Positions 8,750 to 22,773 of a DNA stretch of 25,014 nucleotides are shown here, piece after piece. A program made the position numbers and the translations under genes. A model generated the notes under the pieces. That model was not told the origin of the DNA, ran no database searches, and saw only the letters and a list, made by a program, of their open reading frames with translations. Numbering within the stretch: the stretch's first letter is position 1; each line of letters starts with the position of its first letter. The stretch comes from a virus, in the IMG/VR virus record IMGVR_UViG_3300032020_001003, positions 1-25,014 of that record, one strand, 5' to 3'.

Positions 8750-9178
8750 ATGGGTGAAGTTTCATGCATTTTTTGTAAAATTGTTAGAAGGCAGTCTCCA
8801 GCAAGCTACGTCTACGAGGACGAGAGGGTTATAGCTGTTCTGGACATTTGGCCTTTGAATGAGGGTCACACCCTTGTGATTCCTAAGAGACATTACAAAA
8901 CGGTCTATGAGGTTCCAGATGAAGAAGTTGCCCATCTATACAAAGTCGTCAAGAAGGTTGCATTGGCTGTGAAGAGGGCGGTAGGGGCTGAGGGAATAAG
9001 CATAACTCAACATAACGGGAAGGCTGCTGGCCAAGACGTATTCCACGTACACGTGCATGTAATCCCAAGATATGAAGGGCAGAAGCTTCCCAAATTTGAA
9101 GAAATTCAGGAAGCAAGCAGAGAAAAGTTGGATTATGTTGCCAATAAAATAAAGCCATACATTCGACACGAAAGCTAA
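8750..9178 (+). CDS. HIT-family nucleotide hydrolase or transferase
   Basis: 142 residues from ATG 8750, preceded by GGGTGG. It is a complete HIT-superfamily protein: CIFC zinc pair at residues 6-9, the WPLNEGHTLVIPKRH strand-turn at 34-48, QHNG at 87-90, and the HVHVHVIP triad at 99-106 with His101 as the expected nucleophile. Such enzymes (Hint/Fhit-like) cleave nucleoside phosphoramidates or dinucleoside polyphosphates via a nucleotidyl-His intermediate. It is a typical cellular gene and out of place between capsid genes, and it lies between two diverged copies of the same leader, so lateral acquisition is likely. The substrate cannot be told from sequence. Confidence 0.93.
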   Translation: MGEVSCIFCKIVRRQSPASYVYEDERVIAVLDIWPLNEGHTLVIPKRHYKTVYEVPDEEVAHLYKVVKKVALAVKRAVGAEGISITQHNGKAAGQDVFHVHVHVIPRYEGQKLPKFEEIQEASREKLDYVANKIKPYIRHES

Positions 9179-10876: not shown

Positions 10877-11770
10877 ATGGCTATGGTTCGTGATGCTTTT
10901 ACATGGGTTGACACAGGCGCGATAGCGTATCCCGCGTTGCACAAGCATATCATAGAATTGACGATGCCGGCTCTGGTCGTAAAACGGTTACTGCCCGAGT
11001 TTCCGCTTGTTGCAGGTCGAACAGCAACATTTGCGAAAGAGCAAGGTTCAAGAAGCATTGGCATCAGCGAGATCAGCGAAGGAGCGGAAATTCCGATGGA
11101 CTTTACACCATTAACAACCGTAACAGTCACGCCTTACAAGAAAGGGCTGCGAGAAAGGATTCCACGTGAGGCAATCGAAGACTTGTATATTCCAGTGATT
11201 GAACAGCAGCTTCGACGTCTAGCGAGACGTATGGCTTTTCAAATTGACAAAGACTGCATGACTGTGATTGATGCTGCAGCTGGTAGTAGCAGTGCTGGCA
11301 CGGGCAAAAGCCTCGGATCCACAGGTACAGAGTTTGTCATAACTGGTGGCATTGGTACAAAGGATCTGCTTTGGGCTGACGCGAAAATTGCTAGTTACAA
11401 CTTCATCGCTGATACTTTGCTTTGTAATCCTGTTAATGCGCGTGATCTCAAGTATTTGCCCCAATTTTCACTGTATGCTCAGTATGGCGAGCCAGTGGTT
11501 CAAAGCGGTGCAATAGGAACTGTGTATGGATTGCAATTCTATGTTAGCAGCGTTGTGCCAGTTGGTACTGCTTACGTGTTTAGTACAGGGCAAAATCTAA
11601 GCGCATCCTATGCGCCGCTAGGTTTCTTCGTGATAAAGCGACCTTTGCTTACTGATATTGACATTAAAAAAGAGTTCGACGCAATCGACATCAGTCTTAC
11701 GACAAGGTACTCGCCGGTTATAACATGCGGAGAGGCAATTTCGAAAATAACGGGTTTGGCGACAACTTAG
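10877..11770 (+). CDS. Major capsid protein (HK97 fold)
   Basis: 297 residues with a good GGTGA upstream; two candidate ATGs (10877, 10883), the first preferred. The layout fits the HK97 fold: an N-arm, then the E-loop region with RTATFAKEQGSRSIGISEISEGAEIP, a long spine helix around IEQQLRRLARRMAFQIDKDCM, the P-domain, and an A-domain (ADTLLCNPVNARDLKYLP, PVGTAYVF). A C-terminal strand ends ITGLATT. There is no long N-terminal delta domain, consistent with a separate scaffold in the protease fusion. The place in the operon (portal, protease, decoration, capsid) supports the call. Confidence 0.9.
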   Translation: MAMVRDAFTWVDTGAIAYPALHKHIIELTMPALVVKRLLPEFPLVAGRTATFAKEQGSRSIGISEISEGAEIPMDFTPLTTVTVTPYKKGLRERIPREAIEDLYIPVIEQQLRRLARRMAFQIDKDCMTVIDAAAGSSSAGTGKSLGSTGTEFVITGGIGTKDLLWADAKIASYNFIADTLLCNPVNARDLKYLPQFSLYAQYGEPVVQSGAIGTVYGLQFYVSSVVPVGTAYVFSTGQNLSASYAPLGFFVIKRPLLTDIDIKKEFDAIDISLTTRYSPVITCGEAISKITGLATT

Positions 11771-11888: not shown

Positions 11889-12248
11889 ATGAAGAAATAC
11901 CTTCTTCTAGTCATGTTGGTTACAGCAGCAGCTCTGTTCTTGGCGAAACCTGTGTTTGCTGACGGAAATGTGACGTCTACAACTGTAACTACTGTCGTCG
12001 CATTCGACCCATCCTTCCTGATTACGATGGGTTTGGTGTTCGGCGGGATAGGAACGCTGGCTTTCGTAATCGCTGAGCTAATAGGTATGTACGTCACAAA
12101 AAGCGCTCAAACAAGTATAGTTCAGACGACAACTACAGGAATTAATGCGATAGTCTCTATGACAAGCTTGGGCGTAACAGCAAGTCAAGCAGCAGCCGTC
12201 ACTGAAGTATCCGGCATACCAACAGCGATACCAAAACCGGCAACGTAG
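11889..12248 (+). CDS. Secreted or membrane-anchored small protein (119 aa)
   Basis: ATG 11889 has a strong upstream AAGGAAGAGGTGA. Residues 1-25 are a classic signal peptide: MKK, a hydrophobic core, and a likely cleavage after VFA before DG. Residues about 43-68 (FLITMGLVFGGIGTLAFVIAELIGMYV) form a transmembrane helix. The remainder is Thr/Ser/Ala-rich. It is unusual inside a capsid and neck gene run, flanked by hairpins, which suggests separate regulation. Possible roles include virion-associated membrane protein, superinfection block or lysis helper; none can be chosen from sequence alone. Confidence 0.75.
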   Translation: MKKYLLLVMLVTAAALFLAKPVFADGNVTSTTVTTVVAFDPSFLITMGLVFGGIGTLAFVIAELIGMYVTKSAQTSIVQTTTTGINAIVSMTSLGVTASQAAAVTEVSGIPTAIPKPAT

Positions 12249-13019: not shown

Positions 13020-13139
13020 ATGATTGAGAAGCTTAAGAGACTCAGCAAGCTTGTGTGCGAAAAGTGTTCTGTAGTCGATTATTCCGTTTGCACTCATTGC
13101 GAGATTAAAAAGTTGATAAATGAGCTGATGGCAAAGTGA
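13020..13139 (+). CDS. Mini zinc-ribbon protein (39 aa)
   Basis: ATG 13020 follows GAGGCGGG at ten bases and gives 39 residues with two CxxC pairs, CEKC (13-16) and CTHC (24-27), flanked by helical charged segments. Its stop overlaps the start of the following 540-residue gene as GTGA. The double CxxC motif makes chance translation unlikely. It may act in neck assembly or DNA binding; unknown. Confidence 0.65.
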   Translation: MIEKLKRLSKLVCEKCSVVDYSVCTHCEIKKLINELMAK

Positions 13140-14758
13140 ACGTTCCACAAAGCTATTACGATTTCATAATGCATTACGCTCCATACTTTTACGTTATTCC
13201 AACGAACATGACTCAAAATGCGTCTGCTGGACAAAAAGACGTCACGGTTGCTGACGGTTCCAAATTTAAAGTTGAATATCCAGTGCAAATTCAAGATGAT
13301 GCTCATAGTGAATGGAATAGTGTTGCAAGCATAAACGGCAACGTCTTAACAATGCAGAACAATCTCCAATACACGTATTACGTCGCCAAAAACGGTAAGG
13401 TTGAAGGTCCAGATCCATCCTTTGGAAGAGGAGCCTTTCCTGCAGCCTTCGCAATTGACTTTCTCTATGAGGCTTATTCCGCTTCTCAATTTGCAAGCAA
13501 ACAAACCGAAATTCTCGCTAAAATTGTCGAGCTCGCAGACTTTATCTTAACTCAGCAGTGCACAGATAACATGAAAAAGGCTTACGGCGGATTCAAAAAC
13601 GCTGAAGCTGGAACGGAGTATTGGAGTATTGATACTGGTCGATGCATTCCTCCTCTTTTGAAAGCTTACACTTTAACTAACACGGTTGGATATCTGAATG
13701 CTGCTAAGCTTGCTGGATTAACCTTCCTCTATAACATGCAGCACAATCCGAGCCTTTTAGGGGTTCATGACAAGTATTACGGCGGATTCGCTCGATATGT
13801 GGACATCAACAACAATTGGAGTCAGCCAATGAATTGCGAGGACCTTTATGATTTAATCGGCTTAGATATGCTTGCTCAAACTTACGATCCGACAAACCTA
13901 CCTACCTACGTCGCAATGATGGTTGACCTCGTTAACTTCTTGCGTACCGGCTTTGAGCAGCTTTACTTGTGGTTTGACCCTAAGCCTTCAGGCGACGGAA
14001 GTTGGCACCGTGTTGGCACAGGAGAAACGCAAGTTTACGATGACCCGATGAGCTTCGCATTGTTAGGCTTATACACTTATGAAGGATGGAGCGTAACATG
14101 TCAAAGAGTCTACAATTTCATACAAACAATCCGAGCTTCAGCACAATATCCAGCTTACAACCCCGCCATCTGTTGGCCAGGCTACATCGATGTCGTAACC
14201 CGTTTTCCAGCATGCGCCTACTATGATGCCCTAACGAGCGGTATCCTCTGGAAGATTAGAGCAGTACATGATAAGCCAAGCCTTGCCTTAAGCATGCAAA
14301 TCATCAACAAATATCAAAAGGAGTTCTTGGCTTCTTGGGGACCTTTGTTCACGGATTACAGCCCCATAACACCTCAGAAGGCCATGGCTAACACGACATG
14401 GCTTGCACAACTATTCCTCAATTATGCGGACCCACTGACAAACTTCACACGCATCTTGGACTTGCAGGGCGAAAACCTGCTTCTCTATCCAATTCGTGAA
14501 GCTGCTGAACAAGTCAGCTACAGTCAAGCCCTGGACATCAAAGCCACTGTTACAATGGGCACGGCAGGAGAAATCATGATCGAACCCGGCTATCTCTTTG
14601 AAGACCACATTACAGTCTACACGTTCGTGCCGGTACGTCTCCACGACAAAATCAGGCGTGCTGGCGTTGACTACGAGGTTTTAACCGTTCAAGCCTTCGA
14701 TTTGAACGGAGACCCAGAATATTACAAAAACGTTTGTCGGAGGCTAATTAGTCAATGA
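13136..14758 (+). CDS. Toroid glycosidase-like domain fused to head-closure protein
   Basis: 540 residues from GTG 13136. Three parts can be seen. Residues about 25-92 are a small beta module (SAGQKDVTVADGSKFKV) common in virion proteins. Residues about 95-405 are a run of helix pairs joined by Gly-rich aromatic turns (AYGGFKN..., YYGGFARYV..., WSIDTGRC..., DDPMSFALLGLYTY), the pattern of an alpha/alpha toroid as in six-hairpin glycosidases. Residues about 425-540, with VRLHDKIRRAGVDYEVLTVQAF and a final CRRLI, match head-closure or stopper proteins. Stopper proteins are usually near 100 residues, so the large N-terminal part is an addition. The next gene is the tail terminator. The catalytic residues are not evident from sequence, so enzyme activity is unproven. 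Confidence 0.7.
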   Translation: MNVPQSYYDFIMHYAPYFYVIPTNMTQNASAGQKDVTVADGSKFKVEYPVQIQDDAHSEWNSVASINGNVLTMQNNLQYTYYVAKNGKVEGPDPSFGRGAFPAAFAIDFLYEAYSASQFASKQTEILAKIVELADFILTQQCTDNMKKAYGGFKNAEAGTEYWSIDTGRCIPPLLKAYTLTNTVGYLNAAKLAGLTFLYNMQHNPSLLGVHDKYYGGFARYVDINNNWSQPMNCEDLYDLIGLDMLAQTYDPTNLPTYVAMMVDLVNFLRTGFEQLYLWFDPKPSGDGSWHRVGTGETQVYDDPMSFALLGLYTYEGWSVTCQRVYNFIQTIRASAQYPAYNPAICWPGYIDVVTRFPACAYYDALTSGILWKIRAVHDKPSLALSMQIINKYQKEFLASWGPLFTDYSPITPQKAMANTTWLAQLFLNYADPLTNFTRILDLQGENLLLYPIREAAEQVSYSQALDIKATVTMGTAGEIMIEPGYLFEDHITVYTFVPVRLHDKIRRAGVDYEVLTVQAFDLNGDPEYYKNVCRRLISQ

Positions 14759-15741
14759 GTGAATATGAGGATTCCATAACAACCACGATAAGGCTTCTGC
14801 GCAAGAACATTCATGTAATTAAGGATGATAATTCAATAGCCAGCATTTACGTGAGCAAGGAATGGTATGACCGAGAGCTTTTCAAAAACTATGACGGACA
14901 AATAACCGTTGGCTTGGCTCAGAGTGAAGACCAGAAAATCGAGATGTCCGGTAGGATACGTCGCCGTTTAGGAAGAATCCGAGTTAACACGTGGGCAACC
15001 GACCGCCCAGCAACCTCAGACCCTGGAAGGCTCATGCGCCAAAAAATGGTTGAAGAAGTAAACCGCATTGTCAGGCAAAACAACAAGATTCCAAATCAGA
15101 CACGCTACGATTTTGCCGGGTTAGGCTGGCCGAGTGGCGATCCGCATAAGGCTTTTCAAGCAGGATCCGCTTCGGAGCTTGTTCCTGGAAACACATCTTG
15201 GATCGAGCTAACTAACACTGAATATCAAGGAATCTGGTATAGCGATGATCAGCGTTATTCTAAAAACACCTCTGTTAACCTCGAATATGCATTGATGCTT
15301 TTGCGCTTCAAGGTTGAGAGCAGAGAGAAAACGGTTAAAAAGATTGTTTTAGCTTTTGAAGGCTACGGCACAGCTCCAGCGGGCAATGGCGTAACCATAA
15401 AAGTTTGGAATCACGTCGCAAGTGCTTGGCAGCAGGCCCAGAGCGGAACAGGTGGAGCAGACGAAACAATCACTATCACACTTACTACGAGCATTACCGA
15501 TTACATTGATGATAATGGGTATGTTTGGCTTTTGGCAAGAACCACAAACCCAAGCAACGGCGTGACAGCAGCCATAATAAATTGCGATTGTGTAAGTTGC
15601 ACGGTCATGGTTAATGGAATCACATACCTCGATGTTGTAAGCTTTCGGGATGCTGACCGTGTGGATACTAAACCCATCATTTTCAGAACTGAGTTTGTTC
15701 TGAAATCATGGTCCTTCGAGGACATTGGAGGAGTATTTTAA
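14755..15741 (+). CDS. Tail terminator-like protein with inserted beta-sandwich
   Basis: 328 residues; ATG 14755 overlaps the previous stop as ATGA. Residues 1-115 (TTIRLLRKNIHVI, DGQITVGLA, LRQKMVEEVNRIVRQN-like) fit a tail-completion protein. Residues about 145-285 (SWIELTNTEYQGIWY, KKIVLAFEGYGTAPAGNG, ITLTTSITDYIDDNGYVW) form a beta-sandwich resembling carbohydrate-binding or structural modules. The last 40 residues (YLDVVSFRDADRVDTKP to KSWSFEDIGG) resume the terminator-like fold. Terminator proteins normally run 110-150 residues, so about 150-200 are extra. The inserted domain would project from the neck. The function of the insert is inferred from fold character only. Confidence 0.6.
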   Translation: MSEYEDSITTTIRLLRKNIHVIKDDNSIASIYVSKEWYDRELFKNYDGQITVGLAQSEDQKIEMSGRIRRRLGRIRVNTWATDRPATSDPGRLMRQKMVEEVNRIVRQNNKIPNQTRYDFAGLGWPSGDPHKAFQAGSASELVPGNTSWIELTNTEYQGIWYSDDQRYSKNTSVNLEYALMLLRFKVESREKTVKKIVLAFEGYGTAPAGNGVTIKVWNHVASAWQQAQSGTGGADETITITLTTSITDYIDDNGYVWLLARTTNPSNGVTAAIINCDCVSCTVMVNGITYLDVVSFRDADRVDTKPIIFRTEFVLKSWSFEDIGGVF

Positions 15742-15763: not shown

Positions 15764-16618
15764 ATGGTTGACACATATGGAGCGCATGAAAGCCGCGTCT
15801 ACTTCGTTGAAGAAAGCGTCTATGGAGTAACGCCTACAAGCCCAGCAATGCTTGGTATTACAGCTGAAAGCGTTGAGCCAGCCATAAATCCCAGCAATAT
15901 AAAAGTTCGTGGAGTAGGCTTAGTAGATCTGCAAGCCATCAAAAAAGGTTTGAGAGCACCAAGCCTCAAAGTATCGTATCCGCTTCCAAGCGAAGCACCC
16001 ATAGCCTTTCTTCAGTGGGCAAAAGTTGAATTAGACAAGTCATTAAGCATTCAAGCACTGTATTATAAGGGAATCTTCGCCTCGGCAACGGACATAATTT
16101 CACTTCTTTACACAGGTTGCAAATTTCAGAAAGTAAGCGTTGAATGTGGCATCGAAGACATTGTTAAGGCAACTGCGGATTTGCTCGGACAAGACTTAAC
16201 GGTTGGCACAGCTAAAATCACAGGAGCAACATATGCAGACTACGTAGGCGCCGTTCCATTCTATGAAAGCTACGTTAAAAAGGGCGGAACCGCACTTGAC
16301 CGTGTAACAGACTGGAAATTCAACATAGAAAACAACCTAAAGCCTGTGCCAGTCATAAAAACCACAGGATACATTCTAAAGTATCTACCTCATAGACACA
16401 GAAACCTAACAGGTGAAGTAACATTCGAGTTTGAAAGCAAAGACGAGTTTGACGATGTCATAAACGATACGGAGTTCAGCTTAGAGTTTGGCTTAGGCGG
16501 AAGCAACAAAGCTGTTTTCAGCAACTGCAAATGGGAAGATGTAAAAACACCGACTAAAGTTGAAGACTTGGTATCTCTTAAAGCTTCATTTGTAGCCAGA
16601 CAGGTAGCGATAAGCTAA
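15764..16618 (+). CDS. Major tail tube protein
   Basis: 284 residues with AAGAGGAA before ATG 15764. It begins with a typical ESRVYFVEESVYGVTPTSP segment found in siphovirus tube proteins, followed by alternating beta strands, a linker helix region and a FEFESKDEFDDVINDTEFSLEFGLG section near the end. It stacks as hexamer rings to form the tail tube. Order between terminator and chaperones is standard. No sheath gene follows, so the tail is non-contractile. Confidence 0.8.
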   Translation: MVDTYGAHESRVYFVEESVYGVTPTSPAMLGITAESVEPAINPSNIKVRGVGLVDLQAIKKGLRAPSLKVSYPLPSEAPIAFLQWAKVELDKSLSIQALYYKGIFASATDIISLLYTGCKFQKVSVECGIEDIVKATADLLGQDLTVGTAKITGATYADYVGAVPFYESYVKKGGTALDRVTDWKFNIENNLKPVPVIKTTGYILKYLPHRHRNLTGEVTFEFESKDEFDDVINDTEFSLEFGLGGSNKAVFSNCKWEDVKTPTKVEDLVSLKASFVARQVAIS

Positions 16619-21149: not shown

Positions 21150-21863
21150 ATGGGTCGAGTAACTCCGCTTTTGACAGAAAGAAAAATATTGACTTTCACT
21201 TATCCAGCCGTTCAGGAAACACAAATTACCCCTGAAACTCTTCCCACTTCTGAACCAACTGACCCTCAAATAGCCTACACGATAGCACAAGCAGATTTAG
21301 TTCAGTTAAGCTTCAACGTTTTTCAAAGAATAGAAGTTGCAATTCTCAACGGAAGCGGTCAAGTTGTAACAGCCGCAACAATTTCTTATCGAATGACAAA
21401 AAATGGGGTTTCAGTTAAGACTGGAACTTTTACTGTTGCTGCCAATTATTATTACAGATTGGGATGCTATTTTTATAATGTTGCAGTCGGTGACGTTTTA
21501 GGTATTAAATTATGGTCTAATCAAGCTGATAGCAACTGGGATATGAAAACTTTCTGGATGAATGTCACTCGAGTAATTCCATTCAACAAACCTCGATGCT
21601 TATATAATATAAACGTAGCAGTTCAAGGTAGTGGCGGAACCCCCAAATGGTATCATAATGATGTTTTTGTTTACACAGCAGCAAGCGCTTTTACTGTTCC
21701 ATTATGGTATCCTGCAGCAACTTATGGAATGTTTCAAATTTCACGAGGAGATTCCATATACTCAAATGGTATAGAATCTACAACGGGAACAACACGCCCT
21801 GTTCGAAACGGTAGTAACTGGGTTCCTTCACAGATAATCTTTCGAGGCTTAAGAATTGAGTGA
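21150..21863 (+). CDS. Tail fibre or tip structural protein (237 aa)
   Basis: ATG 21150 follows AAGGAG. The protein is beta-rich with no clear transmembrane part. Aromatic and Asn/Gly-rich strands (IAILNGSGQVVTAATISYRM-like, NYYYRLGCYFYNVAVGDVLGIKLW, WYHNDVFVYTAAS) suggest two beta-sandwich or jelly-roll repeats. It lies between tail-tip genes and the repeat protein and likely forms part of the host-contacting apparatus. No specific family recognised. Confidence 0.6.
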   Translation: MGRVTPLLTERKILTFTYPAVQETQITPETLPTSEPTDPQIAYTIAQADLVQLSFNVFQRIEVAILNGSGQVVTAATISYRMTKNGVSVKTGTFTVAANYYYRLGCYFYNVAVGDVLGIKLWSNQADSNWDMKTFWMNVTRVIPFNKPRCLYNINVAVQGSGGTPKWYHNDVFVYTAASAFTVPLWYPAATYGMFQISRGDSIYSNGIESTTGTTRPVRNGSNWVPSQIIFRGLRIE

Positions 21864-22773
21864 CCTGACCGAGTACGGCGACGTGATGATTAACGATTAC
21901 ATGGACGAATGGGGCTTTCGCAAAATAGATGGTTTGCTGGAAGACGGAACAACAATAATAATTGTCGGAGTCGGAGTTATTGACAAAAGCTTTTCTGAAT
22001 CTGGTGCAGGTAGCGAAGTTTTCGGCATACCGTTTAAGGCTTTACCGTTTGGTGATGTAGGTCAAGGTGCAGATGCTTTTAACACGCCTTTTAGGTCCAT
22101 GGGCTTTTCTGATGTAGGCGCAGGAGCAGACGTTTTTGCTCTTCTGCGTGAGTTAGCATTCTCAGATTCGGGCTTAGGCTCTGACAGTTTCGCAAAGGAA
22201 ATTTTAGCAGCAATTTTAAAAGCGTTTTCTGATGCAGGATTGGGAAGTGACGCTTTTAGCATTCCATTTAAGGCGATGAAATTTTCAGACACTGGTTTAG
22301 GTACTGATGCTTTCATCATATTATTCAAGGCTATGCGATTTTCAGATGTCGGCGATGGAGTGGACGTTTTTGGTCTTTTACGACAGTTAGCATTTTCAGA
22401 CTTAGGAAGTGGCAGTGACATATTCTTAATTCCGTTCAAGGCAATGAAGTTCTCTGACATTGGAAGCGGAGCAGACATATTTACTCTTTTGCGTGAATTA
22501 GTGTTTTCGGACTTAGGAAGTGGCTCCGATGTTTTCACAAACGAAGTTTTAGGATTCCTTTTAAAAACGTTTTCGGATACGGGCTTAGGAGTTGATATAT
22601 TTAACATTCCATTCCGAGCCATGAAGTTTCAAGACTCTGGGTTAGGAACCGATGTTTGGAAAGGCGCCAACTTAATTGAGGCTCCGTTGGTAATTGTTAC
22701 CGCCGACGGAAAAATAATTCTAAGAATTTCAAGGGCGACAAAGAAGGAGCCTGATTACATAATGTTAGGTTGA
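21856..22773 (+). CDS. Repetitive SDxGxGxD fibre-like protein
   Basis: 305 residues from TTG 21856, overlapping the previous stop. Residues 46-268 consist of about 12 imperfect repeats of 18-22 residues with the core FSDxGxGxDxF. Three linker types alternate: IPFKAMK, LLREL or LLRQLA, and a longer EILAAILKA-like form. The GxGxDxF core is like an RTX-type calcium site, but the period is about twice that of RTX. The ends (1-45 and 269-305) are non-repetitive. It is probably a rod-like fibre or adhesion module; the number of units likely varies. Confidence 0.7.
   Translation: MSDLTEYGDVMINDYMDEWGFRKIDGLLEDGTTIIIVGVGVIDKSFSESGAGSEVFGIPFKALPFGDVGQGADAFNTPFRSMGFSDVGAGADVFALLRELAFSDSGLGSDSFAKEILAAILKAFSDAGLGSDAFSIPFKAMKFSDTGLGTDAFIILFKAMRFSDVGDGVDVFGLLRQLAFSDLGSGSDIFLIPFKAMKFSDIGSGADIFTLLRELVFSDLGSGSDVFTNEVLGFLLKTFSDTGLGVDIFNIPFRAMKFQDSGLGTDVWKGANLIEAPLVIVTADGKIILRISRATKKEPDYIMLG
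21991..22659 (+). repeat. Tandem repeats of 54-66 bases coding FSDxGxGxDxF units
   Basis: About 12 in-frame units, each 54-66 bases, code the repeated protein. Linker types follow a partly ordered series, with leucine-type, long-type and IPFKAMK-type triplets in units 3-5 and again in units 9-11, which suggests segmental duplication. Synonymous sites differ widely, so the array is not a recent expansion. Confidence 0.7.

Follow-up and report, generated by a model that had tools for sequence, protein, structure and literature searches.

We report that a viral contig of 25,014 bases (IMG/VR record IMGVR_UViG_3300032020_001003, referred to in its full length as the window) encodes a virion protein of 540 residues in which an (alpha/alpha)6 toroid resembling the six-hairpin glycosidases precedes a head-closure (stopper) domain (Table 1). 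Structure prediction lends good support to this division into two parts, and so do relatives in which the toroid is missing. The identification of the gene product as the stopper of a siphovirus-like virus of Bathyarchaeia is likewise supported. With a probability of about 60%, we propose that the protein forms a hexameric collar of toroids around the neck of the virion, which would engage a surface glycan of the host by binding or processing it. The GTG start of the open reading frame (ORF) overlaps the stop codon of a small ORF upstream, homologues start with GTG, TTG or ATG at the same or an adjoining site, and an ORF check revealed none of comparable kind on the opposite strand.

A full-length AlphaFold2 model, built on an alignment of 66 sequences, reached a predicted local distance difference test score (pLDDT) of 93.9 and a predicted template modelling score (pTM) of 0.91. 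In the model, 13 helices precede a beta domain. Twelve of the helices lie within residues 100-444, the last of them belonging to the stopper domain, and the N-terminal helix (residues 5-14) is assigned to the toroid because residue 1 is already included in the structural alignment. The six helix pairs form a closed toroid in the model, which VIA-align matched to the GH126 protein 3ren (Z 28.0, 3.4 A, 303 residues) and to the cellobiose 2-epimerase 5zig (Z 27.8), with 303-329 residues aligned; GH76, GH88, GH63 and AGE proteins gave Z values of 23-27. A Z of 28 greatly exceeds the value of about 13 at which VIA-align warns of helical repeats, and nearly all of the 50 best structural matches listed were six-hairpin glycosidases and sugar epimerases. 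With regard to the original prediction, the alpha/alpha-toroid that it had assigned to residues 95-405 was recovered, whereas its boundaries were not: the toroid occupies residues 1-23 and 90-435, and a beta cassette at residues 24-89 had been overlooked.

As a single query against Pfam, PHROGs and the PDB, the fusion protein of the window yielded nothing significant, and tblastn against phage records returned only a weak match of 57 residues. The significant family matches all come from family-wide scans and profiles. Pfam C5-epim_C matched 51 of the 66 family members (best 6.2e-6), one of which passes the curated cut-off when scanned alone, and the best matches of a PDB profile search were GlcE at E 0.0064 and a mannanase of family GH76 at E 0.01. 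The toroid has in common with both a repeated helix-pair motif, DAG..I..LL.AY.LT...YL.AA. The top viral match in Foldseek, F9VHN7, could not be named. Assignment to a single CAZy family was rejected, since in such proteins the matches to C5-epim_C, GH76, GH88 and GH127 converge on one helix-pair repeat, and thus only membership of the superfamily can be claimed. At that level, the prediction that residues 1-435 without the cassette form a six-hairpin-glycosidase-like toroid is well supported. Among the loci fetched for comparison (L numbers), L314:3401-4624 (minus strand) encodes a host protein of (alpha/alpha)6 type (GH76 profile 3.1e-7) in a glycosyltransferase and aminotransferase cluster of Bathyarchaeia, with weak similarity to the viral toroid. 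It was discarded as a donor of the toroid, as its match to the toroid profile (hhalign 87%, 96 columns) may reflect the generic repeat only.

The C-terminal domain was also folded alone, as residues 430-540 with 61 sequences (pLDDT 84.9, pTM 0.76). It matched the neck structures of Pam3 (Z 13.6), Pa193 (12.5) and XM1 (11.9), followed by the T1 stopper-terminator (10.8), the gene transfer agent (GTA; 9.7), the lambda portal/neck (9.4) and the SPP1 connector with gp16 (7.9); Foldseek matched it to the Pam3 neck at 1.2e-5. PHROG 939, annotated as head protein, matched 38 of the 61 C-terminal domains (best 3.5e-8), the member in the window itself giving no match, and PHROG 161 (head closure Hc1) reached 0.025 only. 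The domain is a beta barrel of about 100 residues with the fold of SPP1 gp16 and gpFII, and its gene lies in the slot between adaptor and terminator, the adaptor being identified by position only. The fusion gene is located upstream of the terminator gene in 84 of 86 loci and upstream of the tail tube gene in 83 of 86. These results agree with the head-closure assignment of the original prediction, which had named a chain without a toroid and a C-terminus without a match to head-closure proteins as the outcomes that would speak against it; both were checked for, and neither was observed.

In the related locus L277, whose tail tube is 61% identical to that of the window, the same gene slot between the putative adaptor and terminator is occupied by a stand-alone stopper of 113 residues. 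Its alignment to the profile of the C-terminal domain covers 102 of 111 columns (probability 99.2%, E 1.9e-19), and stand-alone stoppers were also present on four viral contigs (L283-286). As the profile alignment starts at the helix of residues 436-444, the toroid was joined to the front of an already complete stopper. In the fetched loci, toroid and stopper co-occur in 282 ORFs (a number that is not a virus count, as the loci overlap), and the toroid without the stopper was found solely in genes that are broken or truncated and in one distant host protein. In L277, the capsid genes are separated from the adaptor gene by what look, by eye, like a sugar-nucleotide epimerase-like gene and a glycosyltransferase-like gene (L277:2081-4238).

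The fusion has 24 close relatives, and a profile search detected it on 106 encoding viral contigs. Together with a ratio of nonsynonymous to synonymous substitution rates (dN/dS) of 0.08-0.12 in the toroid, a sign of strong purifying selection, this breadth argues against a chance product. Contigs from Candidatus Bathyarchaeota genomes (three in number, including one of 342 kb) also carry the family, and a profile search of 251 Bathyarchaeia genomes gave matches in 43; some of these matches are fragments, and they are often multicopy and in long contigs (the longest of about 2.7 Mb). The number of matched genomes and the length of the contigs show the carriers of the family to be proviruses or viruses of Bathyarchaeia. 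Two further loci were noticed. In genome G244, the last ~100 residues of an ORF resembling, by eye, the topoisomerase VI B subunit (L278:5327-7411) match the stopper profile (E 4.4e-15), and this ORF is perhaps a fusion left behind by a decayed provirus. In genome G135, the first ~100 residues of a toroid protein are in frame with the C-terminus of a tail hub (L279:5630-6670), a deletion scar in a decayed provirus.

The cassette inserted in the toroid is cleanly absent from a short subfamily (22 of the 85 non-redundant members). Pfam K1-lyase_Rider matched 48 of the 66 members (best 1.4e-4), and the tail-hub ORFs of L027, L035, L046 and L070, all of them related viruses, contain homologues of 35-52% identity. 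At the DNA level, the cassette of the window is 97-98% identical to those of L005 and L002, whereas the adjoining toroid segments are 70-84% identical; between L002 and the window, the synonymous divergence (dS) is 0.05 in the cassette, 1.04 in the toroid and 0.34 in the stopper. This contrast indicates that the cassette recombines independently of its flanks. One of the tail-hub ORFs (L046:11071-13608) has a C-terminal GH43-like stretch (E 1e-4) in addition to the Rider-like one.

Conservation was computed on the 85 non-redundant family sequences. Conservation reaches 97% or more at 68 positions of the toroid, among which are 7 Asp, 3 Glu, 3 Arg, 10 Tyr and 4 Trp; D166, E235, D302, D303, D352, D364, R169, R292, R375, W290, Y301, Y350, Y362 and Y363 belong to this set. 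Several invariant residues mark the N-terminal ends of helices preceded by long loops, and further ones, namely W290, R292, Y350 and D352, are located in the long loops themselves. In six-hairpin enzymes, such N-terminal helix ends after long loops harbour the active site. Judged from the sequences, the invariant acidic and aromatic residues are candidates for active-site or sugar-binding residues that would face the cavity of the toroid.

A second enlarged protein, whose insert the original prediction had likewise overlooked, is encoded next to the fusion. The putative tail terminator, which had no family match, contains a putative jelly-roll insert that is absent in the toroid-bearing viruses L264, L265, L115, L117, L119, L238 and L275. 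Weak galactose-binding-like matches occur among the terminator family (Pfam Mann_GBD_bact 4.5e-4, GH114_assoc 8.8e-4), and a WD-40 match of the terminator profile in the PDB was discarded, being spread over repeats. With the toroid on the stopper and the insert on the terminator, the neck seems to bear an optional outward module on each of two stacked rings. In L188 and L191, the terminator gene runs on into a different, longer C-terminal part (481 residues).

In the arrangement that we favour, six stoppers would form the usual ring at the neck, from which six toroids would project outward as a collar; the number of copies is taken from the hexamers that known stoppers form (PMC12886913). The enzyme-like or sugar-binding character that the original prediction gave to such a collar is plausible. 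As the N-terminal helix of the stopper of phage R4C contacts the adaptor (PMC10276861), the toroid would sit at the adaptor-stopper level. Its mouth, lined with invariant acidic, Arg and Tyr/Trp residues, would engage a host glycan (S-layer or N-glycan), and the toroid may either only bind this glycan or also cleave or modify it. The Rider-like cassette and the terminator jelly-roll would serve this collar as exchangeable accessory modules for contact with glycans; accessory cassettes are variably present across relatives and recombine separately.

Several points weigh against this proposal. The neck is an unusual site for a primary receptor binder, and the toroid fold also serves proteins other than glycan enzymes. 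The invariant residues showed no significant polarity towards the side of the long loops (p 0.17). No histidine is conserved in the toroid, the best reaching 76% in the non-redundant sequences. The catalytic Glu-Tyr of GlcE, which corresponds to E499-Y500 of the human enzyme and acts in addition to Tyr560 and Tyr578 (PMC13308652), falls on A219-R220 of the toroid in a weak alignment (E 0.0064) that excludes the Tyr560/578 region. On these sequence comparisons, the catalytic set of a known family is not demonstrably kept by the toroid. An AGE-type epimerase with two catalytic histidines was ruled out, given that no histidine exceeds 76% conservation.

A stronger and overlapping form of the collar proposal, which we hold possible but only tentatively, is that the toroid is a true enzyme (a glycoside hydrolase, lyase or epimerase) processing the host surface glycan from the neck, in the manner of enzymatic neck appendages. 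The six-hairpin fold, the invariant acidic pair D302-D303 and the further invariant Asp and Glu residues would suit such a role, adjacent catalytic aspartates are the machinery of GH76 enzymes (D124-D125 in BcGH76; PMC9213526), and the hub of the related virus L046 likewise includes a glycosidase-like (GH43) stretch. However, the register of D302-D303, with which the fourth helix pair of the model begins, could not be fixed relative to GH76, the Glu-Tyr of GlcE is not kept in the weak alignment available, and the histidines of AGE are not kept either. Equally tentative is an extension in which six active six-hairpin domains at the neck would cut or remodel S-layer or N-glycans and would form, with a carbohydrate-binding jelly-roll on the terminator ring below, a two-tier enzymatic collar. 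We consider it unlikely that the toroid is instead an inactive structural decoration which braces the adaptor-stopper-terminator junction or stabilises the particle, its invariant residues keeping the fold or the subunit contacts. The lack of demonstrably retained catalytic residues and the restriction of stopper-less toroids to damaged genes or one distant host protein are consistent with a brace, but the many conserved charged and aromatic residues at post-loop helix N-termini go beyond what a brace seems to require, a bare stopper suffices in related viruses, and the cassettes recombine as host-facing modules do. Finally, it is very improbable that the C-terminal domain is some other small beta-barrel virion protein, such as a baseplate-hub barrel, which would place the toroid away from the neck: related barrels of baseplate and tail-tip proteins follow further down the list (Z 5-7.4), whereas the top matches are nearly all neck proteins (Z 8-13.6), the gene keeps its place upstream of the terminator and tail tube genes, and the stand-alone relative is encoded directly between the putative adaptor and terminator.

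The proposed collar can be compared with several known systems, of which phage 812 and the lactococcal 936 phages offer functional precedents. The stoppers of siphoviruses and myoviruses (SPP1 gp16, lambda gpFII, T1, Pam3 and XM1) have in common with the fusion the C-terminal beta barrel of ~105 residues, the N-terminal helix and the adaptor-terminator gene slot. Their length is ~100-130 residues, whereas here 435 residues of (alpha/alpha)6 toroid precede the barrel. Stoppers form hexamers, and that of Staphylococcus phage 812, gp97, resembles the fusion in having an extra outward domain, in a hexameric neck ring with decorations (PMC12886913); this external domain is a beta-sandwich and the decoration proteins are separate, whereas the domain described here is a helical toroid of glycan-enzyme fold that is covalently fused. 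In the lactococcal 936 phages, carbohydrate-binding modules are borne by the neck passage structure, which is similarly glycan-directed, modular and variable between relatives (PMC6669499). That structure is a separate collar protein with a conserved N-terminal ring domain, a beta-sandwich and helical fibres, reported to be non-essential for infection in TP901-1; as the six-hairpin domain is fused to the stopper and its model contains no helical fibre, it does not represent a neck passage structure of the lactococcal type.

Six-hairpin enzymes (GH126 3ren, GH76, GH88, AGE and the C-terminal domain of GlcE) share the fold with the toroid (Z 23-28), and GlcE and GH76 share the helix-pair motif as well. 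In contrast to these enzymes, the toroid has no conserved histidine pair, is part of a virion structural protein and carries the inserted Rider-like cassette; in the available alignment, it also differs from GlcE in not keeping the Glu-Tyr. The pre-neck appendages of phi29 (gp12) are comparable in that they bear an enzyme, contact the receptor and are located near the connector rather than at the tail tip; they differ in being separate trimeric beta-helix proteins of a short-tailed phage. The original prediction knew of no standard description of such a fusion, and we found none of a stopper carrying a fused six-hairpin domain in the literature on Bathyarchaeia viruses, archaeal proviruses and neck structures, a search that lay mostly outside subscription literature. 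Within the limits of the literature searched, the fusion is a new form of decorated neck.

The other structural genes of the window are included in Table 1; the putative adaptor had no family match in the Pfam and PHROG scans. Three further genes of the window were noted. Positions 8750-9178, in the interval between portal and capsid genes, encode a protein that by eye is HIT-family nucleotide-binding-like (motif HVHVHVIP), which is unusual for a structural module. Directly 3' of the major capsid gene, positions 11889-12248 encode a small protein with, by eye, an apparent signal peptide and a transmembrane segment. A protein of 305 residues with FSDxGxGxDxF-type repeats is encoded at 21856-22773, where the antisense frame is open for 186 codons.

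Table 1. Features of the toroid-stopper fusion and of the neighbouring structural genes in the window.
Feature	Position	Strand	Basis or remark
Toroid-stopper fusion protein	13136..14758	+	540 aa, intact; GTG start, stop ends at 14758
First helix of (alpha/alpha)6 toroid, residues 1-23	13136..13204	+	Helix 5-14; structural alignment from model residue 1
Rider-like beta cassette inserted in toroid, residues 24-89	13205..13402	+	Missing in short subfamily; Pfam K1-lyase_Rider
Remaining (alpha/alpha)6 toroid, residues 90-435	13403..14440	+	AlphaFold2 model, structural matches, dN/dS 0.08-0.12
Invariant acidic/aromatic residues D166, E235, Y238, Y301, D302, D303, Y362, Y363, D364	13631..14227	+	Near N-termini of the first helices of pairs
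Head-closure (stopper) domain, residues 436-540	14441..14758	+	Fold matches, PHROG 939, stand-alone relative
Major capsid protein	10877..11770	+	Pfam Phage_capsid_4 5.4e-11; PHROG 1650 2.4e-15
Putative head-tail adaptor, 154 aa	12321..12785	+	Position only, 5' of fusion; positional counterparts L264:563-1024, L277:4798-5163
Putative tail terminator, 328 aa, with inserted jelly-roll	14755..15741	+	Homologous to putative terminators of 152-153 aa in L264 and L277; named by position and size
Putative jelly-roll (galactose-binding-like) insert, ~residues 114-288	15094..15618	+	~175 extra residues; absent in relatives
Tail tube protein	15764..16618	+	Pfam Phage_tube_2 3.1e-24

Head-closure proteins are usually seen as conserved plumbing, and here one serves as the platform for a large glycan-enzyme-like domain. 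The fusion is widespread in viruses of highly abundant and hardly cultivable archaea, the Bathyarchaeia of sediment, and it makes the engagement of archaeal surface glycans by tailed viruses a testable matter. The family is a marker for finding viruses of Bathyarchaeia, and it shows the evolution of a neck protein through cassette insertion and recombination.
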